From Armatimonadota bacterium (GTDB taxonomy: Bacteria > Armatimonadota > Chthonomonadetes > Chthonomonadales > CAJBBX01): 55,144 bases of DNA. Position numbers and translations under genes: made by a program. Shown in pieces: positions 9,595 through 40,602 of the stretch. The stretch lies in the NCBI GenBank assembly GCA_026392115.1, contig JAPLCQ010000026.1:1-55144 (forward strand), given 5' to 3'. Within the stretch, counting starts at the first letter, position 1, and each line of letters opens with the position of its first letter. The notes beneath the pieces are model-generated. The model was not told the origin of the DNA, made no database searches, and saw nothing but the letters and a program-made list of their open reading frames with translations.

Positions 9595-10419
9595 ATGCTC
9601 ATCGTCGGCGAGCGCATCAACACCAGTCGCAAGGTCAAGTCGGAGCGCGTGATCGAGGCCATGGTCGTCAACCGCGACGCGGAGGCGATCCAGAAGCTGG
9701 CCAGGTCGCAGCAGGACGCAGGCTCCGCGTACATCGATATCAATGCCGGAACCCTGACTTCGGGCGAGCCCGAGGCGCTGGAGTGGCTGACCCAGGTCGT
9801 GCAGGAAGCGGTCACGGTTCCGATCTGCTTCGACACGCCCAATCCGCAGGCCCTGGAGTTGGCCTTGGCCGCGTATGATCGGAGCAAGGGGCAGCCCTTC
9901 ATCAACTCCATCACCGCCGAAGCCGACCGCTACTCGACCATCCTGCCCTTCGTGCTGGAGCAGAAGAGCAAGGTCATCGCCCTGGCCATGGACGACACGG
10001 GTATCCAGCCGGACGCCTCCAAGCGGCTCGACGTGGCCCGAAAGCTCGTCAGCGATCTGGCCGCCGCCGGCGTGCCCCTGGCCGACATCTATGTCGATCC
10101 GCTGACCTTTCCCATCGGCTCCGGCGGCGACGTGGCCATCGCCATGATGTCCGTGCTTGAGGCGATCCAGTCCGAGTTCCCCGGCGTGCAGACCATCGCC
10201 GGCCTCAGCAACGTCTCGCACGGCATGCCCGCCCGCAAGTTCCTGAACTCGGCCATGACGGTCCTCTGCCTGGGCAAGGGGCTGGACGCCGGTATCATCG
10301 ACCCCAACGACAAGATGCTGATGGCCCTCATCGCCGCCGCCGAGGCGCTGATGGGGCGCGACGAGTATTGCGCCGGCTATATCAAGCTCCACCGCAAGGG
10401 CTTCTTCGAGGGGCTATAG
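9595..10419 (+). CDS. Pterin-dependent methyltransferase (AcsE/MtgA/MetH-pterin-domain family)
   Basis: A 274-aa protein that is essentially one pterin-binding TIM barrel of the DHPS/MetH/AcsE type. It opens with IVGERINTSRK, then has DINAG near residue 50, a D-x-P-N segment near 84, FINSIT near 100, and GLSNVSHGMPAR near 200; all are typical of methyl-THF:corrinoid methyltransferases. These transfer a methyl group between tetrahydrofolate and a corrinoid protein. No corrinoid protein is encoded in the window, so direction and partner are open. It is the first gene of a tight run with metF, metV and fhs, separated from metF by one base. The length agrees with AcsE and MtgA (about 260-280 aa) rather than with full MetH. 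Confidence 0.82.
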   Translation: MLIVGERINTSRKVKSERVIEAMVVNRDAEAIQKLARSQQDAGSAYIDINAGTLTSGEPEALEWLTQVVQEAVTVPICFDTPNPQALELALAAYDRSKGQPFINSITAEADRYSTILPFVLEQKSKVIALAMDDTGIQPDASKRLDVARKLVSDLAAAGVPLADIYVDPLTFPIGSGGDVAIAMMSVLEAIQSEFPGVQTIAGLSNVSHGMPARKFLNSAMTVLCLGKGLDAGIIDPNDKMLMALIAAAEALMGRDEYCAGYIKLHRKGFFEGL

Positions 10420-10420
10420 C

Positions 10421-11380
10421 ATGGCTCAGCTGGGCAGGCTGGAGAGCGTCCTCCGCGCGGGCCACTTCGCCGTCTGCGGCGAAATGGGCCCGCCTCAGGG
10501 CGCCGACAAGGGCGCGATCCTCAAGAAGTGCGGCAACTTCCGCAACGTGGCCGACGCCGTCAACCTGACCGATAACCAGACCGCCATCGTGCGCATGAGC
10601 TCGGTGATGAGCAGCGTCTTCGCCATCGAAGGCGGCATTGAGCCCATCATGCAGATGACGTGCCGCGACCGCAACCGACTGGCGCAGCAGTCCGATATCC
10701 TGGGCGCTTATGCGGCCGGGGTGCGCAATCTGCTCTGCCTCTCGGGCGACTACATGTCCTTCGGCAACCACCCGGACGCCAAAGGCGTGTTCGACCTGGA
10801 CTCAGTGCAGCTGATCCACACGGTCGCCGAGATGAACGCCGGACGGTTCCTTTCGGGCGACGAGATGAAGTCGCCTCCCCGCATGTTCATCGGCGGGGCG
10901 GCCAACCCGTTCGCGCCCCCCATGGAGTTGCGGGTTATGCGGCTGGCGAAGAAAATCTCCGCCGGAGCGCAGTTCATCCAGACGCAGCCGGTCTTCGACT
11001 TCCCGCGGTTCGAGCGCTGGCTCAGCCTGGTGCGCGATCAGGGGTTGGAGAAGAAGGTCTTCATCCTGGCCGGCGTCATGCCCGTACGCTCCGTCAAGGC
11101 TCTCCTGCACATGCGCGACAACGTGCCGGGGATGACCGTGGCCGACGAGTACATCAAGCGCATGGAATCCGCCGCCGATCCCAAGGAGGAGGGCGTCGCG
11201 ATCTGCGTTGAGATGATGAAGCGCCTGGCCCAGACGCCCGGCATCAGCGGCGTCCACATCATGCCCGTGATGTGGGAATCGATCACGCCCCGGTTGGTCG
11301 AGGAGGCCGGATTGCTGCCCAGGCCCGAGCCGCCCGCCGAGACATCCGATGCCGCAGCCACCAAGGATGCCGCCGCATGA
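10421..11380 (+). CDS. metF: Methylenetetrahydrofolate reductase
   Basis: A 319-aa FAD-dependent TIM-barrel enzyme that interconverts methylene-THF and methyl-THF. Typical segments are CGEMGPPQGAD near the start (family catalytic Glu), NLTDNQ, MQMTCRDRN, NLLCLSGDY, and GAQFIQTQPVFD near residue 190. The C-terminus carries an Ala/Pro-rich tail of about 20 residues. The stop overlaps the metV start (ATGA at 11377-11380). In acetogens and related bacteria a MetF paired with MetV uses donors other than NADH alone, so this pairing suggests a two-subunit reductase. Confidence 0.92.
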   Translation: MAQLGRLESVLRAGHFAVCGEMGPPQGADKGAILKKCGNFRNVADAVNLTDNQTAIVRMSSVMSSVFAIEGGIEPIMQMTCRDRNRLAQQSDILGAYAAGVRNLLCLSGDYMSFGNHPDAKGVFDLDSVQLIHTVAEMNAGRFLSGDEMKSPPRMFIGGAANPFAPPMELRVMRLAKKISAGAQFIQTQPVFDFPRFERWLSLVRDQGLEKKVFILAGVMPVRSVKALLHMRDNVPGMTVADEYIKRMESAADPKEEGVAICVEMMKRLAQTPGISGVHIMPVMWESITPRLVEEAGLLPRPEPPAETSDAAATKDAAA

Positions 11381-11826
11381 GCGCCTTCACCAAGAAGTTC
11401 GCCGCCTTTGTCGAGCGCCACCCGACCCTCTACAAGCTTGTGCTACTGCTTGAGAACGCCGTCAAGAAGCCCGCGCTGAACTGCCAGTCCTGCGGGCAGT
11501 GCGTGCTCAGCTACAACGCCTTCACGTGCCCCATGCGCTGCCCCAAGCAGCTCCGGAACGGCCCCTGCGGCGGCACCCGCGAGAACGGGCGCTGCGAGGT
11601 CTACCCGGAGAAGGACTGCATCTGGTTCCTCATCAACGAGCGAGCTACGAAGCTGGGCCGCGAGAAGAAACTGCTGAAGTTCCATAAGCCCGTAGACCGG
11701 CGCCTACAGGGCACAAGCGCCTGGATCAATATGTGGGCCGGTCGCATCGAAGGCATGTCGTGGAGCAAGGATCTTGAGGAAAAGGACGTCCAACCCGGTG
11801 GGAGCAAGCGTGACACCAAATCCTGA
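11377..11826 (+). CDS. metV: MetV-like methylene-THF reductase partner, Cys-rich
   Basis: A 149-aa protein with eight cysteines in the pattern C36-x2-C39-x2-C42-x8-C51-x3-C55-x8-C64-x8-C73-x7-C81 and an NGPCGG signature, as in the MTHFR_C/MetV zinc and iron-sulfur family. MetV forms a complex with MetF and is needed for electron delivery in acetogen-type methylene-THF reductases. The start overlaps the metF stop by 4 bases, and the last 17 bases overlap the start of fhs, consistent with one translational unit. The C-terminal tail after residue 120 is polar and probably flexible. Confidence 0.87.
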   Translation: MSAFTKKFAAFVERHPTLYKLVLLLENAVKKPALNCQSCGQCVLSYNAFTCPMRCPKQLRNGPCGGTRENGRCEVYPEKDCIWFLINERATKLGREKKLLKFHKPVDRRLQGTSAWINMWAGRIEGMSWSKDLEEKDVQPGGSKRDTKS

Positions 11827-13507
11827 GGCCCAGGAGCCTCTGACCGACGTAGATATCGCCCAGCGCGCCACGGCACGGCCCATCGCCGACGTGGCTTCCG
11901 AGCTGGGCCTGGCCGCCGACGAAATCCTGCCGTTCGGCGCCGACAAGGCGAAGGTGCGTCTCGAGGTCATCGATCGACTGGCCGCGGCGCGCAAGCCCGG
12001 CAAGCTGATCCTCGTCACCGCCATCACGCCTACGCCTGCGGGCGAAGGCAAGACCACAACGGCGGTGGGGCTCGGCGACGCCCTGCGGAGCCTGGGGGTA
12101 TCGACCTGCATCGCCATCCGCGAGCCCTCGCTGGGGCCATGCTTCGGCGTGAAGGGCGGAGCGGCCGGCGGAGGCTATGCCCAGGTCATCCCGATGACCG
12201 ACATCAACCTCCACTTCACGGGCGACTTCCACGCCGTCACCACGGCGCACAACCTGCTGGCGGCGCTCCTGAACAACCACATGCACCACGGCAACGAGCT
12301 GGGGATCGACGGTCGTACCGTCACCTGGCGGCGCGTCATGGACATGAACGACCGCTCCCTGCGCGACATCGTGACGGGACTGGGCGGCGGCACTAACGGC
12401 ATGATCCAGGAGACCGGCTTCGATATCACCGCCGCCTCCGAGATCATGGCCCTCCTCTGCCTGGCCCGCGACCGCGACGACCTCAGGACGCGCCTGGGCC
12501 GCACCGTTGTCGCGCTGAACAGGGCCGGCGAAGCCGTCACCGCCGCCGACCTGCATGCCGACGGCGCCATGGCCGTGATCCTGAAGGACGCCATCCTGCC
12601 GAACATCGTACAGACGCTGGAGGGCACTCCCGCCTTCGTGCATGGCGGCCCATTCGGCAACATCGCCCACGGCTGTAACTCCGTCATCGCCACCAACATG
12701 GCGCTGCACCTGGCCGACTACGTCGTCACCGAGGCCGGCTTCGGCAGCGATCTGGGCGCGGAGAAGTTCTGCGATATCAAGTGCCGCGTGGCCGACCTGA
12801 AGCCCGAGGCGGCCGTGGTGGTAGCCACCGTGCGGGCGCTGAAGATGCATGGCGGCGTGCCGCTGGCGCAGCTCCGCACCGAGAACGTGGAAGCGGTGCA
12901 CCGAGGGCTGGACAACCTGGAGAAGCACTGCGAGAACATGCGCCTCTTCGGGCTGGAGCCCGTGGTGGCGATCAACGCGTTCCCCACGGATACCAAGGCG
13001 GAGCAACAGACGATCGCCGACTGGTGCGCGGGCCACAACATCAAGTTCGCGCTCTCCGAGGTCTGGGCCAAGGGCGGGGCAGGGGGCGTGGAGCTGGCCA
13101 AGCTGGTCATGGCCGCCTGCCAGGCGCCCTCCAGCTTCCATACCGCCTACCCGTTGCAGATGCCGATCCGCGAGAAGGCGGAGATCGTTGCTCGGACCGT
13201 CTACGGCGCCGATGGCGTGGACTTCTCGCCCGCCGCCGCCCGGCAGGTGCGCGAGATCGAGCGGCTCGGTTTCCGCGAACTGCCCATCTGCGTTGCAAAG
13301 ACCCAGAACTCGTTGTCGGACGACGCCTCGTTGCAGAACCGGCCGCGCAACTTCCGCATCACTGTGCGGGGCGCCAAGGTCTGCGCGGGCTCGGGCATGG
13401 TGGTGCTCTACGCGGGCAACATCATGACCATGCCGGGCCTATCCAAGGTCCCGTCGGCCAACAAGATCGGGATGCACCCGAACGGCGAGATCTACGGTCT
13501 GTTCTAG
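11810..13507 (+). CDS. fhs: Formate--tetrahydrofolate ligase
   Basis: A 565-aa ATP-dependent enzyme making 10-formyl-THF from formate and THF, or the reverse with ATP gain. The P-loop is TPTPAGEGKTTTAVGLGDAL, followed by REPSLGPCFGVKGGAAGGG and DINLHFTGDFHAVT, which are hallmarks of the family; the length is right. I choose the GTG at 11810, with GGGAG just upstream; a TTG at 11774 in the same frame would overlap metV by more than 50 bases. It completes the formyl and methyl ends of the THF pathway. FolD, which links them, is not in this window. Confidence 0.92.
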   Translation: MTPNPEAQEPLTDVDIAQRATARPIADVASELGLAADEILPFGADKAKVRLEVIDRLAAARKPGKLILVTAITPTPAGEGKTTTAVGLGDALRSLGVSTCIAIREPSLGPCFGVKGGAAGGGYAQVIPMTDINLHFTGDFHAVTTAHNLLAALLNNHMHHGNELGIDGRTVTWRRVMDMNDRSLRDIVTGLGGGTNGMIQETGFDITAASEIMALLCLARDRDDLRTRLGRTVVALNRAGEAVTAADLHADGAMAVILKDAILPNIVQTLEGTPAFVHGGPFGNIAHGCNSVIATNMALHLADYVVTEAGFGSDLGAEKFCDIKCRVADLKPEAAVVVATVRALKMHGGVPLAQLRTENVEAVHRGLDNLEKHCENMRLFGLEPVVAINAFPTDTKAEQQTIADWCAGHNIKFALSEVWAKGGAGGVELAKLVMAACQAPSSFHTAYPLQMPIREKAEIVARTVYGADGVDFSPAAARQVREIERLGFRELPICVAKTQNSLSDDASLQNRPRNFRITVRGAKVCAGSGMVVLYAGNIMTMPGLSKVPSANKIGMHPNGEIYGLF

Positions 13508-14842: not shown

Positions 14843-15781
14843 TTGCCATCGAACCGATCCGACCGCCTGGCACGCCTCATGCGGGCGGCTGCCGAGAACG
14901 GCATCGCCGTGCCGGCGTTCAACGTGCCCTACCTGCCTCTCGTGCGGCCGATCTGCGAGGCGTTGGAGCGCCACGGCGCGTTCGGCCTCGTGGAGGTGGC
15001 TCGGCTTGAGCTCTACAAGTTCGAGTCGCGCTCCCTGGCCGCCGTGGCCGAGGAATACGACCGTTGGGCCAACCGGCGCAACGACGCCCTGCACCTGGAC
15101 CACGTGCCCGTCATCGACGAGGACAACTTGGCCGTCGACTACACGGCCCTGATCGCCGAAGGCATCGCTCTGGGTTACGACTCGGTGATGGTGGACGGCT
15201 CGCGGCTCGCCTTTGAGGGGAACATCGACGCCGCGGCCCAGGTCGTCGCCATGGCGCACCCGGAAGGCGTCCTGGTTGAGGCCGAGTTGGGCGCCGTGCT
15301 GGGGCACGAGTCAGGGCCCATGCCGCCCTACGACGAGCTGTTTGCCACCAAGCGCGGCTTCACGGAGGCCGACCAGGCGCGGGTGTTCGTCGAGAAGTCC
15401 GGCGTCGACTGGCTTTCGGTCTCGGTGGGGTCGGTGCACGGCGCCATCGCGCCCTCCACCAAGGGGCAGACCAAGGTGACCGCGCGGCTGGATGTGGAGC
15501 GCGTGTCGGAACTGCGCGTGGCCACGGGCGTGCCGCTGGTGCTGCACGGCGGCTCCGGCATCGCGGTGGAGTATCTCCGGGCGGCGATCGGCGCGGGCAT
15601 GGCAAAGGTGAACGTGGCCACGGACATACGCCAGCCCTACGAGCGCGCACTGGCGGCCGGCGGCTCCCTGGCGGACGGGCAGTCTGCGGCCGCGCAGGCG
15701 CTGGACCGGCTGCTCACCGACGTGCTGCAGCTGGACGGCTCGCTGGCCATGCTTCAGAGCCTCATCGGAGAGCGATCGTGA
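14843..15781 (+). CDS. Class II ketose-(bis)phosphate aldolase (GatY/KbaY/IolJ/FbaA family)
   Basis: A 312-aa zinc aldolase of the F_bP_aldolase family. Motifs include the zinc/catalytic HLDH (followed by VP instead of the usual G), GYDSVMVDGS, EAELGAVLGHES and LHGGSGI, with KVNVATDI near the C-terminus. The family cleaves ketose 1,6-bisphosphates or related phosphates to DHAP or a keto acid and an aldehyde. The start is a TTG at 14843 with AAGGAG six bases upstream. The end overlaps the kinase start (GTGA at 15778-15781). With an FGGY kinase and a FucI-like isomerase downstream, the likely substrate is a ketose phosphate made by these two, yet canonical fucose or ribulose pathways use the unrelated FucA/AraD-type aldolase. 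Confidence 0.83.
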   Translation: MPSNRSDRLARLMRAAAENGIAVPAFNVPYLPLVRPICEALERHGAFGLVEVARLELYKFESRSLAAVAEEYDRWANRRNDALHLDHVPVIDEDNLAVDYTALIAEGIALGYDSVMVDGSRLAFEGNIDAAAQVVAMAHPEGVLVEAELGAVLGHESGPMPPYDELFATKRGFTEADQARVFVEKSGVDWLSVSVGSVHGAIAPSTKGQTKVTARLDVERVSELRVATGVPLVLHGGSGIAVEYLRAAIGAGMAKVNVATDIRQPYERALAAGGSLADGQSAAAQALDRLLTDVLQLDGSLAMLQSLIGERS

Positions 15782-17295
15782 GCTTCCTGGGCGTCGATGT
15801 CGGCACAACGGGCGTCAAGGCCGTAGCCTTCAGCGCCGACGGCGCCCAGATCGCCTCGGCCTACGAGGAGTACCCGCTGCTCTTCCCGTTTCGGGGCGCC
15901 GCGGAGCTGGACAGCGCGCGTGTGATCGCCGCCGCCCGCCGCGTCATCGCCACCGCCGCCGCACAGGCGGTTGCCGATCCGGTGCAGAGCATCGGCATCG
16001 CGTCGCAGGGGGAGGCCTTCACGCCGCTGGCGGGCGACGGTTCCGTGCTGGGTAACGGCATGGTCTCGTCGGACACGCGGGCCGCCGACCTTGTATCGGC
16101 CTTCTCCGAGGCTTTCGGGGCCGAGAGGCTCTACGGCATCACCGGCCACACGCCGTACCCGATGTACTCGCTCTACAAGCTGCTCTGGCTCCGCGACAAC
16201 CAGCCGGAAGTCTGGCGCGGCATGTCGCGCATCCTCTTCATGCAGGACCTAGTGGCCTGCGCCCTCACCGGCGAGATGGCCACCGACCCCAGCATGGCCG
16301 CGCGCTCGATGCTATACGACGTGTCGGCGGGTGCCTGGTCGCCGGAGGTGCTGGAGGCGCTGGACCTTGACGCCGGTCGCCTGCCGCGGATCGTCCAGTC
16401 CGGGACGCCCTGCGGCGGCGTCACGGCCGAGGCCGCCTCCGAGCTGGGCCTTGCCGCCGGCATCCCGGTGGCCTGCTGCGGGCATGACCAGCCCGTGGGC
16501 GCCGTGGGCTGCGGAGCCTCGAATCCGGGCGTCGCGGCCTTCTCCATTGGCACCGTGGAGTGCATCTGCCCGGCGCTGGATCGGCTCATCCTGGACCCCC
16601 TGCTCATGCGGAGCAACCTGGCGTCGTACCCGCATGTGGTCGGCGGTCTATGGACCACGGTCTTGTTCAGCATCACCGCCGGCAGCGTGCTCCGCTGGCT
16701 GCGCGACCAGGTGGCCGTCTCGGAGGCCGAGCAGGCGGCTGCCGACGGCGTGGACGCATACACCCGCATCATGGAGGCGGCTTCGACCGAGCCGTCGCGT
16801 CTGGTGGTCCTGCCGCACTTCGGTCCCACCGGGACGCCGCACTTCGACCCCGACGGCGCCGGGGCCGTGTTCGGCCTGAAGCTCTCCACCACCCGCGCGG
16901 AGCTGTTCCGGGGCTTCCTGGAGGGCATCTCCTACGAGATGAAGTGGAACCTGGACACGCTGGCCGGGGCGGGGCTCAACGTCACCGAGCTGCGAGCCGT
17001 GGGCGGCGGCGCCCGGAGCCCCATCTGGATGCAGATCAAGTCCGACATCCTGGGCGTGCCGCTCTCCACCATGCGGGTCTCCGAGAGCACCTGCCTCGGC
17101 GCGGCCCGGCTGGCCGGCGTCGGTGCGGGCCTGCTCCAGCAGGATGCCGCCGAGGCCTGGGCCGTCGTGGGCCGCACCTTCGATCCCGATCCCATCCGCA
17201 CCGCCCTCTACGAGGAGCGGTTCGCCATCTATCGTGACCTCTGTCAGTCGATGGGGGGCGCCCGCAAGGCCCTCCGCACCATGAAAGGAGACTAG
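15778..17295 (+). CDS. FGGY-family carbohydrate kinase (xylulokinase-like)
   Basis: A 505-aa sugar kinase. The N-terminal phosphate motif is FLGVDVGTTGVKA. Further family features are SIGIASQGEAFTPL, the VSSDTRAADL segment where xylulokinases have a catalytic Asp, and the C-terminal VGGGARSPIWMQIKSDILG (ATP binding). FGGY kinases phosphorylate ketoses such as xylulose, fuculose, rhamnulose or ribulose. It begins at a GTG overlapping the aldolase stop and ends two bases before the isomerase. Flanked by isomerase and aldolase, it most likely phosphorylates the ketose made by the isomerase. The exact sugar is not predictable by eye. Confidence 0.85.
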   Translation: MSFLGVDVGTTGVKAVAFSADGAQIASAYEEYPLLFPFRGAAELDSARVIAAARRVIATAAAQAVADPVQSIGIASQGEAFTPLAGDGSVLGNGMVSSDTRAADLVSAFSEAFGAERLYGITGHTPYPMYSLYKLLWLRDNQPEVWRGMSRILFMQDLVACALTGEMATDPSMAARSMLYDVSAGAWSPEVLEALDLDAGRLPRIVQSGTPCGGVTAEAASELGLAAGIPVACCGHDQPVGAVGCGASNPGVAAFSIGTVECICPALDRLILDPLLMRSNLASYPHVVGGLWTTVLFSITAGSVLRWLRDQVAVSEAEQAAADGVDAYTRIMEAASTEPSRLVVLPHFGPTGTPHFDPDGAGAVFGLKLSTTRAELFRGFLEGISYEMKWNLDTLAGAGLNVTELRAVGGGARSPIWMQIKSDILGVPLSTMRVSESTCLGAARLAGVGAGLLQQDAAEAWAVVGRTFDPDPIRTALYEERFAIYRDLCQSMGGARKALRTMKGD

Positions 17296-17296
17296 C

Positions 17297-18718
17297 ATGG
17301 GCCTAGGCGCCAAGCCGAGATTCGCCCTCTTCTTCGGTAACCGGGGCTTCTTCCCCGGATCCCTCATGGCTTCCGCGCGGCAGGAGGTGAAGGCCGCCGT
17401 TGAAGCGCAGGGCTACGAGACGCTGATGTTGGACGCCGATGCCACGCGCTTCGGCGCCGTCGAGACCCCCGCCGAGGGCGCCGTCTACGCCCGCTTCCTC
17501 AAGGAGAACGAGGGCAAGTTCGATGGCGTCATTCTCAGCCTGCCCAACTTCGGCGACGAGACCGGCGCCGTGGCGGCGCTGCAGCACGCGGGCGTACCCA
17601 TCCTGATCCAGGCCTATCCCGACACCATGGACCGCATGGAGCCCGCCCTTCGCCGGGACTCCTTCTGCGGCAAGTTCTCCATCATGGATGTCTTCTGCCA
17701 GACCGGCGTGAAGTTCACCGCGCTCAAGCCCCACACCGCAGCGCCCGACAGCGCGGCGTTCAAGGCCAACGTGGACCACTTCGCCCGCGTCTGCTCGGTC
17801 ACGTCGGCCTTCAAGGGTCTCGTGGTCGGAGCCATCGGCGCCCGGACCACGGCCTTCAAGACCGTCCGCATCGACGAGCTGGCCCTGCAGAAGCACGGCA
17901 TCACCATGGAGACCTACGACCTCTCCGAGGTCTTCTGCCGCGTCCGCGCCCTGACGGATGCCGACGCCGCCGTAAAGGAGAAGGCCGCCACGCTGAAGGC
18001 GTACGCCGACTTCAGCCGCGTGCCGGACGAGAGCTTCTCGACCATCACCCGCATGGGCGTCGTCTTCGACCAGATCATCGAGGAGAACAACCTCGACGCG
18101 GTGGCGATCCGCTGCTGGGTCGAGATGCAGCGCGAGATGGGCATCTCCCCCTGCGTGCTGCTCAGCGAACTGAACAACCGCGGCGTCGTGGCGGCCTGCG
18201 AGGTCGACATGGGCAACGCGGTGGCCATGCACGCCCTGGCCGCGGCCTCCGGCGCTCCGGCCACATGCCTCGACTGGAACAACAACTACGGCGATGATGA
18301 GGACAAGTGCATCCTCTTCCACTGCGGGCCCGTGCCGCAGGACCTGATGACCGGCCGCGGCACCGTGACCAACCACGCCATCCTGGACAACGCGCCCGGC
18401 ATCAACGCGTCGTTCGGCTGCAACGTGGGACGAATCAAGCCGCAGGACTTCTCCTTCTCCAGCATGACCACGCAGGAAGGCAGGCTGAAGTTCTACGTCG
18501 GCGAGGGCCGCTTCACGCCGGACCCGATCCCCGCGGTCTTCTTCGGCTGCGCCGGCGTCGCCCAGATCGGCGGCCTGCAGGACGTTCTCCGCTACATCGG
18601 CTACAACGGGCATCGGCACCATGTGGGCATCACGCCCGGCAGCGTGGCAGCGCCCGTTCGCGAGGCCCTGGGCTACTACCTGGGCTACGACGTGGCCTAC
18701 CCGCAGATCGGCGAGTAG
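17297..18718 (+). CDS. L-fucose/L-arabinose isomerase-family protein
   Basis: A 473-aa cytoplasmic protein of the FucI/AraA-like family. Metal-ligand positions are recognisable as the Glu in RCWVEMQ, the Asp in CEVDMGNAVAM and a His-rich stretch near the C-terminus (NGHRHHVGITPG). It is shorter than E. coli FucI (591 aa) and resembles the FucI-like proteins found widely in Gram-positive and environmental bacteria. It would convert an aldose such as L-fucose, D-arabinose or another pentose/deoxyhexose to the ketose for the FGGY kinase just upstream. It is the last gene before a strong hairpin. The nearby GH29 fucosidase makes fucose a candidate substrate. Confidence 0.75.
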   Translation: MGLGAKPRFALFFGNRGFFPGSLMASARQEVKAAVEAQGYETLMLDADATRFGAVETPAEGAVYARFLKENEGKFDGVILSLPNFGDETGAVAALQHAGVPILIQAYPDTMDRMEPALRRDSFCGKFSIMDVFCQTGVKFTALKPHTAAPDSAAFKANVDHFARVCSVTSAFKGLVVGAIGARTTAFKTVRIDELALQKHGITMETYDLSEVFCRVRALTDADAAVKEKAATLKAYADFSRVPDESFSTITRMGVVFDQIIEENNLDAVAIRCWVEMQREMGISPCVLLSELNNRGVVAACEVDMGNAVAMHALAAASGAPATCLDWNNNYGDDEDKCILFHCGPVPQDLMTGRGTVTNHAILDNAPGINASFGCNVGRIKPQDFSFSSMTTQEGRLKFYVGEGRFTPDPIPAVFFGCAGVAQIGGLQDVLRYIGYNGHRHHVGITPGSVAAPVREALGYYLGYDVAYPQIGE

Positions 18719-20219: not shown

Positions 20220-21557
20220 TTACTGCGTGTCCAGCACCACCACGGTGTCAACCGCGTCCGGCGCCGTCGTCGGGCCTGCGAGCGTCACGTCTCTGCCCGT
20301 GCGGAGCACCTTCAGCATGGTCCCGCGGTCGGCCAGGAGCGAGGCGCGCTTGATGAAGGCGGGCAGCCCCTTTACCACGATGCGCCCGTCGGCGGGCCAG
20401 TTGAAGACGTGGAGGTAGACCTTGGAGCCCTTCTTCGTGGCGCGTCCCCAGTCGGGGCGACCGATCGGGCTGGCGGAGGTCCCGTGGATGCTCTCGGCGT
20501 TCTTGCGCATCCAGGCGCCCATGGCCTCGAGCCGTTCCACGCTGGCCTCGGGGATGAGCCCCTCGGCGGTGGGGCCCACGTTGAGCAGCAGGTTGCCGCC
20601 CTTGGACGCCACATCAACGAGCATGCGGATCAGGTCAGTGGCCGATTTCCAGTTGGTGTCGTTCTTCCTGAAACCCCAGGTGTAGTTCATCGTGATACAC
20701 GACTCCCAGTCCACTCCGGGCAGGCCGGAGGCGGGCACTTCCTGCTCGGGCGTGCCGTAGTCGCCGGCGAAGTCGCCCTCCTTGTTCAGGCCCTGCATCC
20801 CCTGGCGGCCCTTGTCGACGCGGTTGTTGACGATGATGCTGGGCTGCAGGCTCCGCACGTAGCTGTATAGTTCCTTGCCCATGTCATGCGTCCAGGTGCT
20901 CTCCCACTCGCCGTCGAACCACATGATGCCCAGCGGGCCGTACTCCTTCACGAGTTGCTTCAGCTGGGCCTTCATGTACTCGATGTACGCCGGGAAGCTG
21001 GCCGGGTCGGCGGGGCGCTTGTCCCACGGTCGGCGGGGCAGGTAGTCGGGCTCGTGCCAGTCCATGATGGAGTGGTAGAAGCAGAGCCGCATGCCCTCGG
21101 ACTTGCAGGCCACGGCCAGCTCCTTCAGGATGTCGCGCTTGAAGGGCGTGGACATGACGTCCCAGTCGCTGTTCTTCGCGTCGAAGAGGCAGAAGCCGTC
21201 GTGGTGCTTGCTGGTGATGACGACGTACTTCATGCCGGCGCGCTTGGCCAGCTTCACCCACTGGAGGGCGTTGAACTTGACGGGGTTGAACTGGGCCAGC
21301 AGCGGCTCGTAGTCCGGCACCGGTATTTGGGCGTTGGTCATGATCCACTCGCCTGTGCCGCCGGTCTGCTTGCCCTGCCACTCGCCGGCCGGGATGGCGT
21401 AGAGGCCCCAGTGGATGAAGAGGCCGAAGCGGGCGTCGCGGAACCAGCCCATCCGCTTGTCGCGCTCGGCGGGCGTCTCCGAGGGCGTCTGGGCCAGGGC
21501 GGGCGGCATGATCGAGGCCAGGCAGGCGGCCAGTACGGGCAGGCAGAGGCGTCGCAT
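20220..21557 (-). CDS. Secreted alpha-L-fucosidase, GH29
   Basis: A 445-aa protein with a signal peptide (MRRLCLPVLAACLASIMPPALAQ). The GH29 core follows: MGWFRDARFGLFIHWGLYAIP, then MKYVVITSKHHDGFCLFD, and the nucleophile Asp215 in IMWFDGEWE. Another family motif is GGNLLLNVGPTAEG. It removes terminal alpha-L-fucose from glycans outside the cytoplasm. A small C-terminal beta domain follows. The gene begins 3 bases after the GH51 stop with AAGGAAG upstream, so the two form an operon. Released fucose could feed the FucI-like isomerase module encoded on the opposite strand. Confidence 0.92.
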   Translation of the reverse strand: MRRLCLPVLAACLASIMPPALAQTPSETPAERDKRMGWFRDARFGLFIHWGLYAIPAGEWQGKQTGGTGEWIMTNAQIPVPDYEPLLAQFNPVKFNALQWVKLAKRAGMKYVVITSKHHDGFCLFDAKNSDWDVMSTPFKRDILKELAVACKSEGMRLCFYHSIMDWHEPDYLPRRPWDKRPADPASFPAYIEYMKAQLKQLVKEYGPLGIMWFDGEWESTWTHDMGKELYSYVRSLQPSIIVNNRVDKGRQGMQGLNKEGDFAGDYGTPEQEVPASGLPGVDWESCITMNYTWGFRKNDTNWKSATDLIRMLVDVASKGGNLLLNVGPTAEGLIPEASVERLEAMGAWMRKNAESIHGTSASPIGRPDWGRATKKGSKVYLHVFNWPADGRIVVKGLPAFIKRASLLADRGTMLKVLRTGRDVTLAGPTTAPDAVDTVVVLDTQ

Positions 21558-21560
21558 GGG

Positions 21561-23051
21561 CTACTTCCTTTCGATGGTCGCGCGGGCGGAGACGAAGCCC
21601 AGGGCGGGTACGGTGACGCGGAGGCGGCCATCCTGCGCGGCGGCCTGCCAGGGCGTCGGCTCCACGGCGTTCGGGGCCTCCCAGCTGTTGGCGGCCCTGG
21701 GGTCGCTGCCGTGCAGGGCGTCGGCGCCGGTGGCGGCCGTCACGACGGCGTCGTTCAGGCGCACGTCCAGCGTCACGGCGTCGGTCTGGCTCCTGTTCAC
21801 GGCGAAGAGGGCCAGGCGGCCTTCGTCATCCAGGCAGGCCGAGACGTCGAGTGCAGGCGTCTCGCCCCGCGAACCCGCCTTGTACGTGGGGCAGTCGAGT
21901 TGCGTGCGGAGGGAGCGCCCCGCCGTGTGCCGGGCCATCAGGGCGAAGGGATGGTAGATGCTCTGGATGAGCAGTCCGTCGGGCCGCGTGAGCATGGGCG
22001 CGATGATGTTGACGATCTGCGCGATGCAAGCCACCTTGACCACGTCGGCGCGGCGGATGAACGCATTGAGGTACTGGGCGCAGACCAGCGCGTCCTCCAG
22101 GTTGTAGACCTCTTCGATCAGGTGCGGGGCCTTGGTCCAGCGGCCGTCCATCTCCATGGCCTTGTACCAGACGTTCCACTCATCGAAGGAGAGGTGGACC
22201 CGCTTGTCGGACCGCTTCATGCCCCGTACGTAGTCGAAGAGGCCCGCGTAGTCCGCGATGATCCGGTCGATCTCGACGCCCTCGGCGAGGTACCAGGCCG
22301 TATCGCCGGCGTGGTTGGAGCTGTAGCGGTGCGCCGAGACGTAGCTGACGTGGTCCCAGCAGTACTCCAGCACTTCGCGGTCGTAGGCCAGATACGTACC
22401 CATGGACCGCCCCGACGAGCCGCAGGCCACCAGCTCGATCGTCGGGTCGAGGCCGCGCATGAGCTTGGCCGCCTGGTCGGCCCGGCGGGCATACTCCGCC
22501 GCGGGCACATGCCCGGCCTGCCAGGGGCCGTCCATCTCGTTGCCCAGGCACCAGACCTTGACGCCGTAGGGTTCGCGCCGCCCATTGGCCACGCGCCGGT
22601 CGGCCCAGTAGGTGCCGGCGGGCATATTGCAGTATTCGACCAGCGCCTGCGCCTCCATGGCTCCCCGGGTGCCCAGGTTCACGGCCATCATGGGCGCGGT
22701 GTCGGCCTTGCGGCACCACTGCATGAACTCATCGACGCCGAACTGGTTGGTCTCGACGCTCTTCCAGGCGTAGTCGGGTCGGGCGGGCCGCTGGTCGCGC
22801 GGGCCGATGCCGTCGGTCCAGTCGTAGCTGCTGACGAAGTTGCCGCCCGGGTAGCGCATCAGCGGCATGCGCAGACCGCGAACGGCCTCCAACACGTCGG
22901 TGCGGAACCCGTCATCGTCGGCCAGAGGGCTGTCGGGGTCGTAGACGCCCTCGTAGACGGCGCGGCCCATATGCTCCAGAAAGCCGCTGAAGATGCGCGG
23001 ATCGATGGGCCCGGCGTGGAACTCGGTGTCAAGGGTAAGCGTGGCAAGCAT
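21561..23051 (-). CDS. Intracellular alpha-L-arabinofuranosidase, GH51
   Basis: A 496-aa protein without a signal peptide. GH51 marks are IDPRIFSGFLEHMGRAVYEG at the start, RYPGGNFVSSYDW, the acid/base Glu172 in CLGNEMDGPW, and the nucleophile Glu291 in SFDEWNVWY. The C-terminal beta domain is complete. It hydrolyses arabinofuranosyl oligosaccharides after uptake. Its ribosome site and first four codons (AGGAGCGCCGC, ATGCTTGCCACG) reappear 1.45 kb away, upstream of the CPBP gene, which looks like a duplication. The GH29 gene follows 3 bases later. Confidence 0.93.
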   Translation of the reverse strand: MLATLTLDTEFHAGPIDPRIFSGFLEHMGRAVYEGVYDPDSPLADDDGFRTDVLEAVRGLRMPLMRYPGGNFVSSYDWTDGIGPRDQRPARPDYAWKSVETNQFGVDEFMQWCRKADTAPMMAVNLGTRGAMEAQALVEYCNMPAGTYWADRRVANGRREPYGVKVWCLGNEMDGPWQAGHVPAAEYARRADQAAKLMRGLDPTIELVACGSSGRSMGTYLAYDREVLEYCWDHVSYVSAHRYSSNHAGDTAWYLAEGVEIDRIIADYAGLFDYVRGMKRSDKRVHLSFDEWNVWYKAMEMDGRWTKAPHLIEEVYNLEDALVCAQYLNAFIRRADVVKVACIAQIVNIIAPMLTRPDGLLIQSIYHPFALMARHTAGRSLRTQLDCPTYKAGSRGETPALDVSACLDDEGRLALFAVNRSQTDAVTLDVRLNDAVVTAATGADALHGSDPRAANSWEAPNAVEPTPWQAAAQDGRLRVTVPALGFVSARATIERK

Positions 23052-33636: not shown

Positions 33637-34731
33637 GTGGTTCGACTGGGCATCATCGGTGCGGGCGGCATGGCCAACGCGCACATGGACCGTTACCGTG
33701 AGATCGAGGGCTGTACCGTAGTGGCCTGCTGCGATGTCGTCCCCGGCAAGGCGGCGAAGTTCGCGCAGGATCGCGGAGTGCCCAGCAGCTACGAAGACTA
33801 CCGCGCCATGCTCGACCACGAGGCGCTGGACGCCGTGGCCGTGGTCACCACCGACGCCACCCACGCCGAGTGCTCGCTGGAGGCGCTGGGCCGAGGCCTG
33901 CACGTGCTCTGCGAGAAGCCCCTGGCCACATCGCTGGAGGACGCCCTCCGCATGACTGAGGCCGCCCGGGCGTCCGGTCGTATCAACATGGTCAATTTCT
34001 CCTACCGCAACTCGGCCGCCGTCCAGGGCGCCGCCGCCGCGATCAGGGCAGGGGCCATCGGGCGCGTCCTGCACGTCGAGGCGAGCTACCTCCAGAGCTG
34101 GCTCGTCAGCCGCGAGTGGGGCGATTGGCGCACGGGCAACCACCTCACGTGGCGGCTCTCCACGCGCCACGGCAGCGCCGGCGTGCTGGGCGACATCGGC
34201 TGCCACATCTATGATATGGTCAGCTACCTCTGCGGCGATATTGCCGAGATTCAGTGCCGCCTCCGGACCTTCAGCAAGGGCGAGCCCAACGAGATGGTGG
34301 GCGAATACGCGCTGGACGCGAACGACAGCTTCGTCAGCGCCGCCTCCTTCTGCAACGGGGCCATGGGCGCCGTTCATTCGACGCGCTGGGCGTCGGGGCA
34401 GGTGAACAGCCTGCGGGCCAGGATCTACGGTGACGGCGGGGCCATCGACGTGGAGCTGGACCGATCGTGGGACGAGTACCGCACCTGCACCGGCCAGGAG
34501 GCCATCGACCGCCACGACTGGCGCACCGAGGTCTGTCCGCCGTCGCCCAACAACTACCAGAGGTTCATCACCGCCATCCAGACCGGCTGTCCCGATCCCT
34601 GCGACTTCGCCGTCGGCGCGCGCGTGCAGGCCTACCTGCACTACAGCCAGGAGTCCGATCGCTTGGGAGCGGCTTGCCCCATCCGGATGACGGCTGGCTA
34701 TCTCGCAGGAGGTCCGCTCCATGTTGCGTAA
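33637..34731 (+). CDS. Gfo/Idh/MocA-family oxidoreductase
   Basis: A 364-aa NAD(P)-dependent dehydrogenase. The nucleotide motif is LGIIGAGGMANAH near residue 4, with the family EKPLA motif near residue 95 and a GDIGCHIYDM segment in the C-terminal substrate domain. Members oxidise sugars, inositols or their derivatives. The start is a GTG with AAGGAG upstream. The end overlaps the next gene by 11 bases. There is no signal peptide, so it acts in the cytoplasm, probably on a product of the neighbouring hydrolases. Confidence 0.85.
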   Translation: MVRLGIIGAGGMANAHMDRYREIEGCTVVACCDVVPGKAAKFAQDRGVPSSYEDYRAMLDHEALDAVAVVTTDATHAECSLEALGRGLHVLCEKPLATSLEDALRMTEAARASGRINMVNFSYRNSAAVQGAAAAIRAGAIGRVLHVEASYLQSWLVSREWGDWRTGNHLTWRLSTRHGSAGVLGDIGCHIYDMVSYLCGDIAEIQCRLRTFSKGEPNEMVGEYALDANDSFVSAASFCNGAMGAVHSTRWASGQVNSLRARIYGDGGAIDVELDRSWDEYRTCTGQEAIDRHDWRTEVCPPSPNNYQRFITAIQTGCPDPCDFAVGARVQAYLHYSQESDRLGAACPIRMTAGYLAGGPLHVA

Positions 34732-35737: not shown

Positions 35738-36922
35738 TCAGGGCTTGGGCTCGGCGGCGAGGGCGTCCTTCAGCGCCTTGACCAGGTTGGCGCGGATGCC
35801 CTCGATGCCGGCTCCCTCGCCGCCCTTGGTGGCCGGGCTGGGGTAGACCCGGTTCGTCAGGAAGATGACATACGCCCCGGCGGCGTGGTCCATCCAGATG
35901 GACGTGCCGGTGTAGCCCGTGTGACCGATGGAAGTGTGCGCCTGGTCTCCGTCGGCGGTCTCCGCGTAGGGCGGCTTGGTGTAGACCGCCCAGCCCACGC
36001 TCCTCGGGCTCGCGATGGCTGGCGGCGTGGAGATCGTGAACGCCAGTCGCGCCGTCTCCGGCCGCAGGATCACCCTCCGCCCGCGCCTGCCGTCGACCAG
36101 CATCATCCGCACGAAGCGCTCCAGGTCCGGCCCTGTGGAGAAGAGCCCCGCGTTGCCGGGGCAGGTCCGCTCCGCCGTGTGGTACCTGGCGAGCGGGTCG
36201 TGGATCACGCCGCGCACCGGCTTCGCATCGGTGGTAGCCGCCGTCGGGGCGGCTCGCCGTACCTGTGCAGGCGTGGGCCGGTAGGTCGTGTCGCGCATCC
36301 CAAGCGGACCCCAGAGGCGGCGTCGCAGCAGCGTCTCGGTATCTTCGCCGGCCACGCGCTGCAGCAGTCCCGCCAGCGTCTGCATGTTGAGGCAGCTGTA
36401 GACCATCTTTGTGCCGGTGGGGTAGGAGAGCGGCAGGTCGGCGTAGCGGCGGAGCAGGGCGGCATCCGTCGTCTCGTCCGGACGCCGGCCCTTCTCCACT
36501 ACGGTGAAGCTCTCGTAGGCCTTGAGGCCCGAGACGTGCGTGGCGAGGTGCCGGAGCGTGACGCCTTCTTTGCCCCGCGCGGCAAACTCGGGCAGGTAAC
36601 GCGACACGGGCTGATCCAGCTCCAGAGCGCCGTCCTGCAGCAGGAGCATGGCGGCAGGCGTCGTGGCCACGACCTTGGTCAGCGAGGCCAGGTCGAAGAG
36701 CGTGCTGACCCGCATGCGCGGCGCATTCGGCCCGTAGGTCTGCGACCCGTAGCTTCGGCGAAGCAGTGTCCGGTTGCCCCGGCCCATCACCACCACGGCG
36801 CCGGGGTACCTCTGCTCCCGGATGCCGGCCGACACCAGGGCCTCCACCTGCCGCGGCAGCGTGGCCCGCGCGGCCACGGGGCCGGTCGGAAGGGCCAGGG
36901 CGATCAGTGCGGCCAGAAGCAT
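35738..36922 (-). CDS. Secreted class-C beta-lactamase-fold serine hydrolase
   Basis: A 394-aa protein with a signal peptide (MLLAALIALALPTGPVAARA). The SxxK motif is SLTK (S80, K83), the second motif is YSCLN, and the third is HTGYTG in place of KTG. The family includes esterases, D-peptidases and class C beta-lactamases; the HTG form suits esterase or peptidase activity and gives no ground to expect resistance. I start it at the ATG at 36922, which has GAGGAG upstream; the frame continues 21 codons further without support. It is divergent from the dehydrogenase operon across about 80 bases containing a palindrome. Confidence 0.82.
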   Translation of the reverse strand: MLLAALIALALPTGPVAARATLPRQVEALVSAGIREQRYPGAVVVMGRGNRTLLRRSYGSQTYGPNAPRMRVSTLFDLASLTKVVATTPAAMLLLQDGALELDQPVSRYLPEFAARGKEGVTLRHLATHVSGLKAYESFTVVEKGRRPDETTDAALLRRYADLPLSYPTGTKMVYSCLNMQTLAGLLQRVAGEDTETLLRRRLWGPLGMRDTTYRPTPAQVRRAAPTAATTDAKPVRGVIHDPLARYHTAERTCPGNAGLFSTGPDLERFVRMMLVDGRRGRRVILRPETARLAFTISTPPAIASPRSVGWAVYTKPPYAETADGDQAHTSIGHTGYTGTSIWMDHAAGAYVIFLTNRVYPSPATKGGEGAGIEGIRANLVKALKDALAAEPKP

Positions 36923-36974
36923 GGGGTGTCTCCTCGGTCTATTTGCCGGCGCGCAGGGCGGCCCCGCGCAGGCA

Positions 36975-36986
36975 TGTGGTACCACA
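36975..36986. promoter_or_regulatory. Perfect 12-bp palindrome, possible operator
   Basis: TGTGGTACCACA, centred between the divergent serine hydrolase and alcohol dehydrogenase genes and 19 bases before the latter's ATG. Its core TGGTACCA fits the GT-x-AC symmetry typical of FadR-type GntR operators. No regulator gene lies next to it. Confidence 0.45.
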
Positions 36987-37005: not shown

Positions 37006-38115
37006 ATGCGATCCGCGGATGCCGCCGTCTTTGTCGGTTGTGATAGGGGACTGGAGGTCCGGTCGCTGCCGGTGCTGCCGCCGGCGGAGGGGCGCGCCGT
37101 GGTGGACCTGGTTGCCTCCGGTGTCTGCGGCACGGACGTACACATCCTTGAAGGGGCCATCGGCATTCCCGCGCCGTTCATCCCCGGCCATGAGTTCCTC
37201 GGTCGCGTCTCGGACCTGGGCGACGGCCCGCACGTCGACTGCCTGGGCCGACCGGTGAAGCCCGGCGATCTCGTGGCCGTGAACGTCATCGAGCCCTGCG
37301 GCTCCTGCCTGCTCTGCGCCACCGGCGGCGCGGCCTCCTGCCTGAACCTCATGGCCTCGCTATCCTACATCGCCGACCCCGATGTGGCCCCCCACCTGCA
37401 CGGCGGGTATGCCGAGGCGACCAACTGCCCCATGCGCTACCTGCAGCTCCTGCCGCCGGGCCTCGATCCCATGGTCGCCTCCGCCTTCCTGTGTGCCGGG
37501 CCCACGGTCGTTCGCGCCATGGCCTACGCCGGCGGCGTCCGCTCTGGAGAGCACGTCGTGGTGATCGGCTCCGGTCCCGTGGGGCTCTTCGGCGTGCTTT
37601 GGGCCACCCGGCACGGAGCGGCCTCCGTCACCATGGTGGGCTCTTCGTCGAACCCGCTGCGCCTGGAGCTTGCCCGTGCGCTGGGCGCCACGGCGACCCT
37701 CGACATCCGAGCCTCCACGGCGGCGGAGCGGCTCGACGCCGTCCGCGCCGTCACCGCAGGCGTGGGCGCCGACCTGGTCCTGGAGGGCGCCGGCGCTCCG
37801 GACGCCTTCGCCGAGGGCCTCGCCCTGCTCCGCCCGCGCGGCAGGCTGGCGCTGGCCGGGCAGTACTCCGACCGTGGCGCGGCCTCAATCGCGCCGCAGT
37901 TGCTGACGTGCAACGCCCTGCAGGTCTTCGGCTCCGCCCAGTTCACGGCCGAGGACCGCGAGGCCTGCTTCGAGTTTCTGCTCTCGGTCCGCGATGCCTG
38001 GCCCACGATCCTCCGCGTCGTGACCCATCGCGCGACCGTTCGCGACGCCGCATCTCTGATGTCGGCCGCGCGCTCCGGGAAGGCCGTCAAGGCCCTGCTG
38101 GTTCCAGAAGGGTAG
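37006..38115 (+). CDS. Zn-dependent medium-chain alcohol/polyol dehydrogenase
   Basis: A 369-aa enzyme. The catalytic zinc set is C41, H62, E63 (CGTD, GHEF). The structural zinc site C98-x2-C101-x2-C104-x7-C112 is intact. The Rossmann motif is VVVIGSGPVGLFG, and GADLVLEGAG follows. It would oxidise an alcohol or polyol or reduce an aldehyde with NAD(P). The ATG at 37006 is supported by GGGAG; longer starts would overlap the divergent gene. It is the first gene of a three-gene unit with the 111-aa protein (4 bases later) and the glycyl radical enzyme, which suggests linked alcohol, aldehyde and radical chemistry. Confidence 0.88.
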   Translation: MRSADAAVFVGCDRGLEVRSLPVLPPAEGRAVVDLVASGVCGTDVHILEGAIGIPAPFIPGHEFLGRVSDLGDGPHVDCLGRPVKPGDLVAVNVIEPCGSCLLCATGGAASCLNLMASLSYIADPDVAPHLHGGYAEATNCPMRYLQLLPPGLDPMVASAFLCAGPTVVRAMAYAGGVRSGEHVVVIGSGPVGLFGVLWATRHGAASVTMVGSSSNPLRLELARALGATATLDIRASTAAERLDAVRAVTAGVGADLVLEGAGAPDAFAEGLALLRPRGRLALAGQYSDRGAASIAPQLLTCNALQVFGSAQFTAEDREACFEFLLSVRDAWPTILRVVTHRATVRDAASLMSAARSGKAVKALLVPEG

Positions 38116-38119
38116 GCCA

Positions 38120-38455
38120 ATGGCCAGTGCAGAGCCGGAGGGGCCCTGGGTGCAGGTGCTGCTGCAGGGCCGCTACGTGGGCGACCCATCCACCACCATC
38201 GGCATCCTCGAGGACGAGGACCCGGCGTTCGTCTACCTGCGCCTATCGGACGGAGAGACCATGGTGCTGCCGAAGCAAGCCATCGCGAGGATCGTCCCGC
38301 TCCCGCCCCGCGATGATCGGCCCGTCGACCGTCTGGTGCGTCCAGCCGAGGCGCCTGATGACACGGATCGGCTGGTTCGACCGGTCGGTTTCGCGCCCGA
38401 CGAAGACGCGCACCTGGCCCGACCTGCCCATGCGCCGGAGGAGAAGCGACGATGA
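38120..38455 (+). CDS. Unknown 111-aa protein with C-terminal peptide repeats, coupled to the glycyl radical enzyme
   Basis: Residues 8-60 look like a small beta barrel (VQVLLQGRYVG, GILEDEDPAFVYLRLSDG, TMVLPKQAIARIV), SH3- or Sm-like in pattern. The C-terminal half holds three degenerate units of the form DRLVRP-x2-x-APD/E: DRLVRPAEAPDD, DRLVRPVGFAPDED and AHLARPAHAPEE. It contains no cysteine, so it differs from the small Fe-S subunits known for some glycyl radical enzymes. Its stop overlaps the next start (ATGA at 38452-38455), so the two are probably made together. I do not recognise the family; a structural or targeting partner is a guess. Confidence 0.6.
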   Translation: MASAEPEGPWVQVLLQGRYVGDPSTTIGILEDEDPAFVYLRLSDGETMVLPKQAIARIVPLPPRDDRPVDRLVRPAEAPDDTDRLVRPVGFAPDEDAHLARPAHAPEEKRR

Positions 38456-40602
38456 GCCTGCCGAAGCACCTGCCCGCCGAGCATCTGGCCGCAGCCACGC
38501 TGGCGCTGCAGGATGTGCGACCGCACTACGTCGCGTCGCTCTGGAGGGCCGCCTCGTTCGCCGAGACGGAGGGGCAGCCCATGCCGCTGCGGCGCGCGCA
38601 CGCCCTGAACGCCGTCCTTCGCCAGTGCGACCTTCCCATGACGCCTGGTGAGCTGCTGGTCGGTTCCGGCCTCGGTCGCCTGGCCGAACGCGCCGACGCG
38701 CCGGCGCTCGCCGCTGCCTCCGAGGCCCTGAGGCCCTTCGCCGGACGCCACTTCGGCACCCACTCCGACCATGCGGCGCCAGACTATGCCTCGCTGCTGC
38801 GCGACGGCGTCGGCGGGCTCATGGTGCGCACTCGGTCCGCCGCCGCCACGTTGCCCCGAGAGCCCTTCATCGCGTCGGAGAGGCACACCTTCCTGTCGGC
38901 CGTCATGGTGGCGCTTCAGGGTGCGCAGGCCTTCGTGCTTCGCTGGGCCGACGCCGTTTCATCCGCGTCGGAGGAGCCCTTCGCCGGGTTGGCCGCGCGG
39001 CAGGAGGCCATGCTGCGCCGCCTGGCCCTGGAGCCGCCACAGACCTACCACGAGGCCCTGCAACTGACCCTCCTCGCGCACCACATGATGCAGCTCGATG
39101 ACCGCTTCGCCATGGCGCTGGGCCGGGCAGACCAGTTCCTCTGGCCCTTCCTGCGCGACGATCTGGCGGCAGGCCGTCTGGACGAAGAGGATGCCCAGGC
39201 CCTCACCGATGCCTTCATCGCCAAGCTGGTGCACCGGGGCGATATCCAGAACGTCTGTGTGGGCGGCCTGACACCGTCCGGCGAAGACGCGGTGAACGCG
39301 CTGAGCCTCATGCTCGTCCGCTCCGTGGGCACGATTCGGCGGCCGGGCCCCAACCTCACCGCCCGGATCGCCTCTTGCTCGCCGGACGCCTTCGTCCGGG
39401 CCTGCGCCGAGTGCGTGCGGACGGGCATCGGCTTCCCGGCGGTCTACAACGACGATGTGCAGGTGCCCGCCCTGGCTGATCAGGGCTATGCGCTCGAAGA
39501 CGCCCGCGACTACTGCTTTGTCGGCTGCATCGAGGCCCACATCCAGGGCAAGCAGGCGCCCTGGGCCGACAGCCGCTTCAATCTGCTCCGGTGCGCCGAC
39601 CTGGCCCTTCGCGGCGGCATCGACGGCCTGACGGGCGAGCGTACAGGCCCCGACACCGGTGAACCGGTCGACTGGGAGGCCTTCTACGCGGCCTTCGCGC
39701 GCCAGATGGAGCACGGCCTCGACGCCCACTGCGGTTGGATCTGCGACATGGAGCGCGAGGCCGACGCCCGCGCCTTCGACCTGGCCTCGCCGCTGCTCAG
39801 CGCCTTGACGGCCGACTGCATTGAGCGCGGCCTGGACATCAACGACGGCGGCGCCCGCTACGAGGCCTGCCACGGTGTGGCGGGCATGGGCATCGGCTCC
39901 GTGGCGGACACGCTGGCGGCGGTGCGCCGGTTCATCTACCGGCAGGCGCGCTGGACGCTGCCCGAGCTTCGCGAGATGCTCGACGCCGACTTCGCGGGCT
40001 TCGAGGCCGAGCGGGCCGTGGTGCTGCGCGAGGCGCCCAAGTACGGCAACGATGACGAGGAGGTGGACGGCCTGGCCGTGCGAGTGGCCGCCGACTTCGG
40101 CGCATCGCTCCTGCGCCGCCGCCTGCCGCGCGGAGGCCGCTTCTGGGGCCTCATGGCGGCGAACGTGCAGAACGTGGCTGCCGGGCTTGAGGTGGGCGCC
40201 ACGCCCGACGGCCGCAAATCCCGGGAGCCGCTCAGCGATGCCGCATCGCCCTCCTTCGGCCGAGATCGCAACGGGCCCACCGCCGTGGCCCGCTCGGTGG
40301 CCAAGCTCGACTACAAGCTGGCTCCCGGCGGCAACGTGGTCAACATGAAGTTTCATCCCTCCGCGCTGGCAGGCGACGAGGGTGTGGCGGCGCTGGCGGC
40401 GCTTATCCGGACCTGCTTTGGGTTGGGCGGAGTGCAGCTGCAGTTCAACACCGCCGGAGTGGAGATGCTGCGAGCGGCCATGGAGAAGCCTCAGGACTAT
40501 GCCGACCTTGTGGTTCGCGTCAGCGGATTCTCTGCCTACTTCACCCGGCTGGACCGCGCCGTGCAGGAGGACGTGCTGGCGCGCACCGAGCATACTTTCT
40601 AG
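38452..40602 (+). CDS. Glycyl radical enzyme, eliminase/decarboxylase type (PFL-like family)
   Basis: A 716-aa glycyl radical enzyme. The glycyl loop is RVSGFSAYF with G692, 24 residues from the end, as in the family (Phe replaces the common Tyr after Gly). The thiyl site is GCIE with C359 and E361. A single Cys followed by x-Glu matches glycerol/diol dehydratases and related eliminases, not pyruvate formate-lyase, which has two adjacent Cys. PAVYNDDVQVPAL and PNLTARI are further family segments. It is shorter than most (about 760-850 aa). The radical-SAM activase it needs is not in the window. Upstream partners are an alcohol dehydrogenase and an unknown small protein. The substrate is unknown; a diol or related alcohol is plausible. 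Confidence 0.88.
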   Translation: MSLPKHLPAEHLAAATLALQDVRPHYVASLWRAASFAETEGQPMPLRRAHALNAVLRQCDLPMTPGELLVGSGLGRLAERADAPALAAASEALRPFAGRHFGTHSDHAAPDYASLLRDGVGGLMVRTRSAAATLPREPFIASERHTFLSAVMVALQGAQAFVLRWADAVSSASEEPFAGLAARQEAMLRRLALEPPQTYHEALQLTLLAHHMMQLDDRFAMALGRADQFLWPFLRDDLAAGRLDEEDAQALTDAFIAKLVHRGDIQNVCVGGLTPSGEDAVNALSLMLVRSVGTIRRPGPNLTARIASCSPDAFVRACAECVRTGIGFPAVYNDDVQVPALADQGYALEDARDYCFVGCIEAHIQGKQAPWADSRFNLLRCADLALRGGIDGLTGERTGPDTGEPVDWEAFYAAFARQMEHGLDAHCGWICDMEREADARAFDLASPLLSALTADCIERGLDINDGGARYEACHGVAGMGIGSVADTLAAVRRFIYRQARWTLPELREMLDADFAGFEAERAVVLREAPKYGNDDEEVDGLAVRVAADFGASLLRRRLPRGGRFWGLMAANVQNVAAGLEVGATPDGRKSREPLSDAASPSFGRDRNGPTAVARSVAKLDYKLAPGGNVVNMKFHPSALAGDEGVAALAALIRTCFGLGGVQLQFNTAGVEMLRAAMEKPQDYADLVVRVSGFSAYFTRLDRAVQEDVLARTEHTF

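Follow-up and report, generated by a model that had tools for sequence, protein, structure and literature searches.

The locus described here encodes an oxygen-sensitive glycyl radical enzyme (GRE) which, judged from its sequence, represents an uncharacterised clade of eliminase GREs with a remodelled substrate pocket and is encoded in one compact gene cluster with a Zn-dependent alcohol dehydrogenase (ADH). The favoured reading, to which we assign a probability of about 0.6, is that the clade works with a clade-specific Zn-ADH, the GRE being a new dehydratase that would feed its carbonyl product to this dedicated partner.

The window, i.e., the whole stretch of 55,144 nucleotides analysed, corresponds to the complete contig C103 of a 5.7 Mb Armatimonadota genome (G000; 98.6 % complete), and its closest named relatives, with a GRE that is 93 % identical, are uncultured Chthonomonas-type Armatimonadota. 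The features of the locus are:

37006..38115, + strand: Zn-dependent medium-chain alcohol/polyol dehydrogenase, 369 aa (Pfam ADH_N and ADH_zinc_N; co-occurrence with the GRE clade)
38120..38455, + strand: 111-aa protein, predicted 5-stranded Sm/SH3-like barrel with disordered tail (model, homologue distribution)
38452..40602, + strand: GRE, eliminase type, short N-terminal form, 716 aa (PF02901 and PF01228; predicted structure)
38665..38769, + strand: site of the N-terminal shortening of the clade, residues 72-106 (length comparison with characterised eliminases)
39526..39534, + strand: Cys loop C359-I360-E361, thiyl Cys and catalytic Glu of the CxE motif (alignments)
40516..40533, + strand: glycyl-radical loop R689-V-S-G692-F-S694 (alignment; fits the RVxG[FWY] fingerprint of GREs)

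The tight packing of the three genes noted in the preliminary description is exact in the sequence: the ADH stop codon is separated from the next ATG by 4 bases (38116-38119), the small ORF and the GRE gene share an ATGA overlap (38452-38455), and all three ORFs are retained by codon-usage gene calling. Divergent from the ADH gene lies a homologue of class-C beta-lactamase-fold hydrolases (35738-36985). Genes for a class II aldolase, an FGGY kinase and an L-fucose-isomerase-like protein follow each other at 14879-18718, and the window also encodes GH29 (20220-21557), a GH106-type protein (5461-8079) and a protein with an arabinofuranosidase C-terminal domain (21561-23051); together these genes constitute deoxysugar/hemicellulose catabolism. 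One run of genes (9595-13507) for a pterin-binding/CdhD-like protein, MTHFR, DUF5981 (the C-terminal partner of MTHFR) and formate-THF ligase is a folate one-carbon branch, unusual company in a lineage that is often thought to be aerobic.

Affiliation of the 716-aa protein with the GREs is based on its PFL-like (E 1.6e-112) and Gly_radical (E 9.9e-30) domains, the conserved Cys (C359) and the sequence RVSGF, which fits the GRE fingerprint (PMC11528403). The C359-I-E361 sequence in the Cys loop is the CxE motif that defines GRE eliminases (PMC7077986). The single thiyl Cys with x-Glu and the radical-bearing G692 recognized at the outset are intact, and C359, I360, E361 and G692 are invariant in the alignment of 20 clade members. 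The predicted structure (pLDDT 91.2) displays a complete GRE fold, with best matches to solved GREs at Z 42-47 over about 700 residues. Highest among these ranks the A. fulgidus GRE 2f3o (Z 47.1, 30 % identity), a 776-aa protein with no assigned function and with a lower sequence score than glycerol dehydratase (GD). The best PDB sequence matches are the GD 1r8w and propanediol dehydratases (PD).

In a tree of 51 GREs, the window GRE falls into a clade of 20 sequences (100/100 support) from Armatimonadota, one Chloroflexota MAG and gut Clostridia. This clade stands apart from glycerol dehydratase, RiDD, Pdu-type GRE, 9rco (a 1,2-propanediol dehydratase by its PDB title), PflD, CutC, HypD and PflB, and holds none of the characterised enzymes sampled, in agreement with the preliminary description. 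PDB members entered the tree as three partial sequences taken from alignments, together with annotated plasmid-borne GREs, and the sampling left out IslA, BSS/X-succinate synthases, HPAD, arylacetate decarboxylases and 2f3o; the PDB sequence scores of isethionate sulfite-lyase, X-succinate synthases and arylacetate decarboxylases, all families outside this sampling, are below that of GD. None of the NCBIfam equivalog cut-offs considered (HypD, CutC, PflD-type PRK09983, HpsG/HpfG, HPAD, IAD) was passed, with bit scores versus cut-offs of 361/1100 for HypD, 360/1109 for PRK09983, 324/1050 for CutC and 343/1000 for HpfG; the PFL2-3 subfamily TIGR01774 was likewise matched (445 bits) below its cut-off (678). 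The PflD/YbiW sugar-phosphate dehydratases (8id0 with 1,5-anhydromannitol-6-P, and 8id7) share the GRE fold (Z 40-42) and, in the case of PflD, an Asn at the N301 position, but differ by their place on another branch and by the low PRK09983 score of the window GRE. A literature search retrieved no biochemistry for the clade and nothing on GREs in Armatimonadetes or on biochemically studied anhydroglucitol-type GREs.

The B12-independent glycerol/1,2-propanediol dehydratases (1r8w, 5i2g, 9rco) resemble the window GRE in fold (Z 42-43; 32-34 % identity over 700 residues), in the CxE motif and in the equivalents of H164, W445 and D447. They differ in forming a separate clade, in about 54 additional residues between the positions of G71 and H107, and in their pocket; moreover, no microcompartment gene was found among the scanned neighbours of the window GRE. 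Pocket residues were read off the sequence alignment, with no substrate-bound structure behind them: in GD numbering, H164, C433, E435, W445, D447 and G763 are kept in the clade, while N156, H281, S282 and Y640 are replaced, the last by Ala. Hence only H164 and D447 remain of the six reference residues (N156, H164, H281, S282, D447, Y640) common to 1r8w, 5i2a, 9rco and the Pdu-type GRE. Of the initial assignment as diol dehydratase or related eliminase, the eliminase type therefore stands by virtue of the CxE motif, whereas a diol dehydratase in the narrow meaning of the term is not supported, given the replaced pocket residues.

These data also bear on the possibility that the GRE dehydrates 1,2-propanediol within a fucose/rhamnose pathway, with the ADH forming propanediol from lactaldehyde or propanol from propanal by reduction. 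The aldolase, kinase, isomerase-like, GH29 and GH106 genes of the window would suit such a pathway, as would the top PDB sequence matches and the retained equivalents of H164, E435 and D447. The fucose/rhamnose genes, however, lie at a distance of 20 kb and were not encountered at the GRE loci of three other genomes (G007, G196, G239), four pocket positions are altered, and the clade lies outside a GD/PD group that is itself supported at 100/100, so that we regard this pathway assignment as unlikely. For the preferred new dehydratase, the pocket residues disfavour plain propanediol, and the substrate is probably neither 1,2-propanediol nor glycerol; it is probably larger than propanediol, since Tyr at position 640 has given way to Ala and H281/S282 are lost. 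A sugar-derived polyol is likely, because fucose/rhamnose- and hemicellulose-type genes are present in the window and several relatives are encoded close to glycan genes.

The length of 716 aa is below that of the full-length GRE chains among the PDB matches listed (759 aa or more) and typical of the clade (about 709-728 aa). It results mostly from a shorter segment between G71 and H107, with about 35-37 residues in the clade versus about 88-92 in characterised eliminases. The protein had been described as shorter than known classes; the short length is real, but it is a trait of the whole clade and recurs elsewhere. A second, likewise uncharacterised GRE group (C17b-type; L004, L066, L118), with one copy in the window's own genome, is shortened in the same N-terminal place.

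The ADH possesses the residues of Zn-type enzymes (catalytic C41/H62-E63; structural C98, C101, C104 and C112) and a GxGxxG motif at 188. Among 291 Armatimonadota genomes, 14 contain the window-type GRE clade; 11 have the ADH homologue, each of them a GRE carrier; no ADH orthologue was found in any of these genomes without the GRE. The nominal hypergeometric p, which ignores shared ancestry, is 1e-17 by genome and 1.5e-9 by genus. The ADH gene adjoins the GRE gene in eight Armatimonadota genomes and two Clostridia, in the order ADH-small gene-GRE in three congeners (G000, G001, G002), ADH-GRE without the small gene in G195 and G196, and GRE-ADH in G239, G240 and the two Clostridia. It also adjoins an activase gene in four genomes, once together with the GRE gene (activase-ADH-GRE, G007) and otherwise away from the window-type GRE (G006, G009, G011). 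An adjacent ADH was missing in most Clostridia members found, some of whose contigs are short. Thus, the full three-gene order is confined to three congeners, while the linkage of dehydrogenase and GRE proposed in the preliminary description is wider and recurrent. That the two genes are neighbours by chance and their products unconnected is hardly credible: three clade genomes (G031, G040, G238) carry the GRE with no ADH at threshold, but the two genes are repeatedly found linked, in either order and in two phyla, the ADH gene is also linked to that of the activase, and every ADH genome carries the GRE. The ADH-GRE partnership is real, and joint action of the two enzymes is supported above all by this recurrent linkage.

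The order in which they act could be reversed, with the ADH oxidizing a sugar or polyol to its keto form before the GRE acts. In line with this are the similarity of the ADH to polyol/inosose and threonine dehydrogenases (best PDB match, the zinc ADH 1vj0) and a Gfo/Idh/MocA sugar dehydrogenase encoded nearby (33637-34731). In characterised GRE dehydratase systems, however, reduction of the product is the usual task of the partner dehydrogenase, and an ADH acting first appears rather unlikely.

That the small ORF is a genuine gene follows from its counterparts in two sister species (88 % and 73 % identical) and from purifying selection within the genus (dN/dS about 0.15-0.2). Its product matches no Pfam or NCBIfam family (a single chance-level match, E 0.23) and is modelled (pLDDT 67) with moderate confidence as a 5-stranded Sm/SH3-like barrel (residues 10-60), followed by a predicted disordered tail with L-V/M-R-P..AP motifs. 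The barrel matches Hfq/Sm-like barrels (Z about 7); such matches are common, and no function is claimed from them. A 63-aa barrel homologue in genome G102 (L143:5768-5959) has a sub-threshold match to DUF6897, which hints at a wider family. A small protein encoded beside the GRE is also known from X-succinate synthases and HPAD, whose small subunits are Cys-rich Fe-S proteins. The 111-aa protein, by contrast, contains no Cys, hence no Cys-ligated Fe-S cluster, and its distribution does not track that of the GRE, so that an Fe-S-type GRE subunit is ruled out. A role as regulatory or assembly subunit could be read from the ATGA translational coupling and the purifying selection, yet is quite improbable: the gene and that of the GRE are adjacent in just three species, all from one genus, and the small gene was not found at GRE loci elsewhere in the clade, the G001 version stops at 66 aa and lacks the tail, and homologues in G007 (112 aa) and G006 (93 aa) reside on contigs other than those of the GRE, the latter overlapping a gene for a class-C beta-lactamase-fold (serine) hydrolase, of which the window gene divergent from the ADH is a homologue. 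Of the Cys-free protein originally described as coupled to the GRE, the lack of Cys was borne out; the coupling was not supported. Our conclusion is that the window GRE does not have this protein as a subunit; the best explanation is that an unrelated barrel protein was inserted within this genus as a passenger.

No radical-SAM activase is encoded within the window, as had been recognized, and the genome contains a single TIGR02494 activase above cut-off, on contig C87. This protein is 60 % identical to, and the orthologue of, the activase encoded with this GRE type in G007, where one GRE and one activase share one operon with the ADH, which makes that pair natural partners. A second TIGR02494 match (42 bits, contig C54) lies beside a MEMO1-like gene and was rejected, since by eye it looks AmmeMemoRadiSam-type; a PF13353 search yielded no further clear activase candidate in the genome. 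G000, G001 and G002 each harbour nine GRE loci and one TIGR02494 activase over cut-off, one G000 locus being split in two frames. At L080:6705-8400 (contig C85), a HypD-like GRE occupies two open frames, the C-terminal part scoring 654 bits to HypD; G001 and G002 hold closely similar GREs with longer frames. A similar surplus of GREs relative to activases was observed in G009 and G040. According to one published account (PMC11528403), GREs are served by dedicated activases, in most cases encoded close by, and a pair of enzymes next to a single activase is atypical; set against this norm, one activase versus nine GREs makes a "hub" activase a hypothesis worth testing. The extended proposal, i.e., a new GRE dehydratase for a sugar-/polyol-sized substrate with its dedicated Zn-ADH and a single hub activase serving about nine divergent GREs, is put forward only tentatively.

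For the favoured dehydratase, the operon linkage in G007 suggests that the C87 activase would generate the glycyl radical at G692, which, going by the motif, would then move to C359. By homology to glycerol dehydratase, the thiyl radical would abstract a hydrogen atom from a carbon that carries a hydroxyl group in a polyol-type substrate, E361 would accept the proton of this group, and the hydroxyl next to it would depart as water, possibly aided by H107 and D373, to yield an aldehyde or ketone. The ADH may then reduce this carbonyl to the alcohol and so act as an electron sink, unless the two steps run in reverse order.

GREs, whose substrates are not easily predicted from sequence, perform difficult dehydrations in anaerobic metabolism. 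A well-delimited uncharacterised GRE clade is now available with a conserved ADH partner and an identified activase, rendering its chemistry directly testable. Genomes with one activase and nine GREs would probe the specificity of GRE activation, and a hub activase, if true, would depart from the usual one-to-one pairing of GRE and activase.
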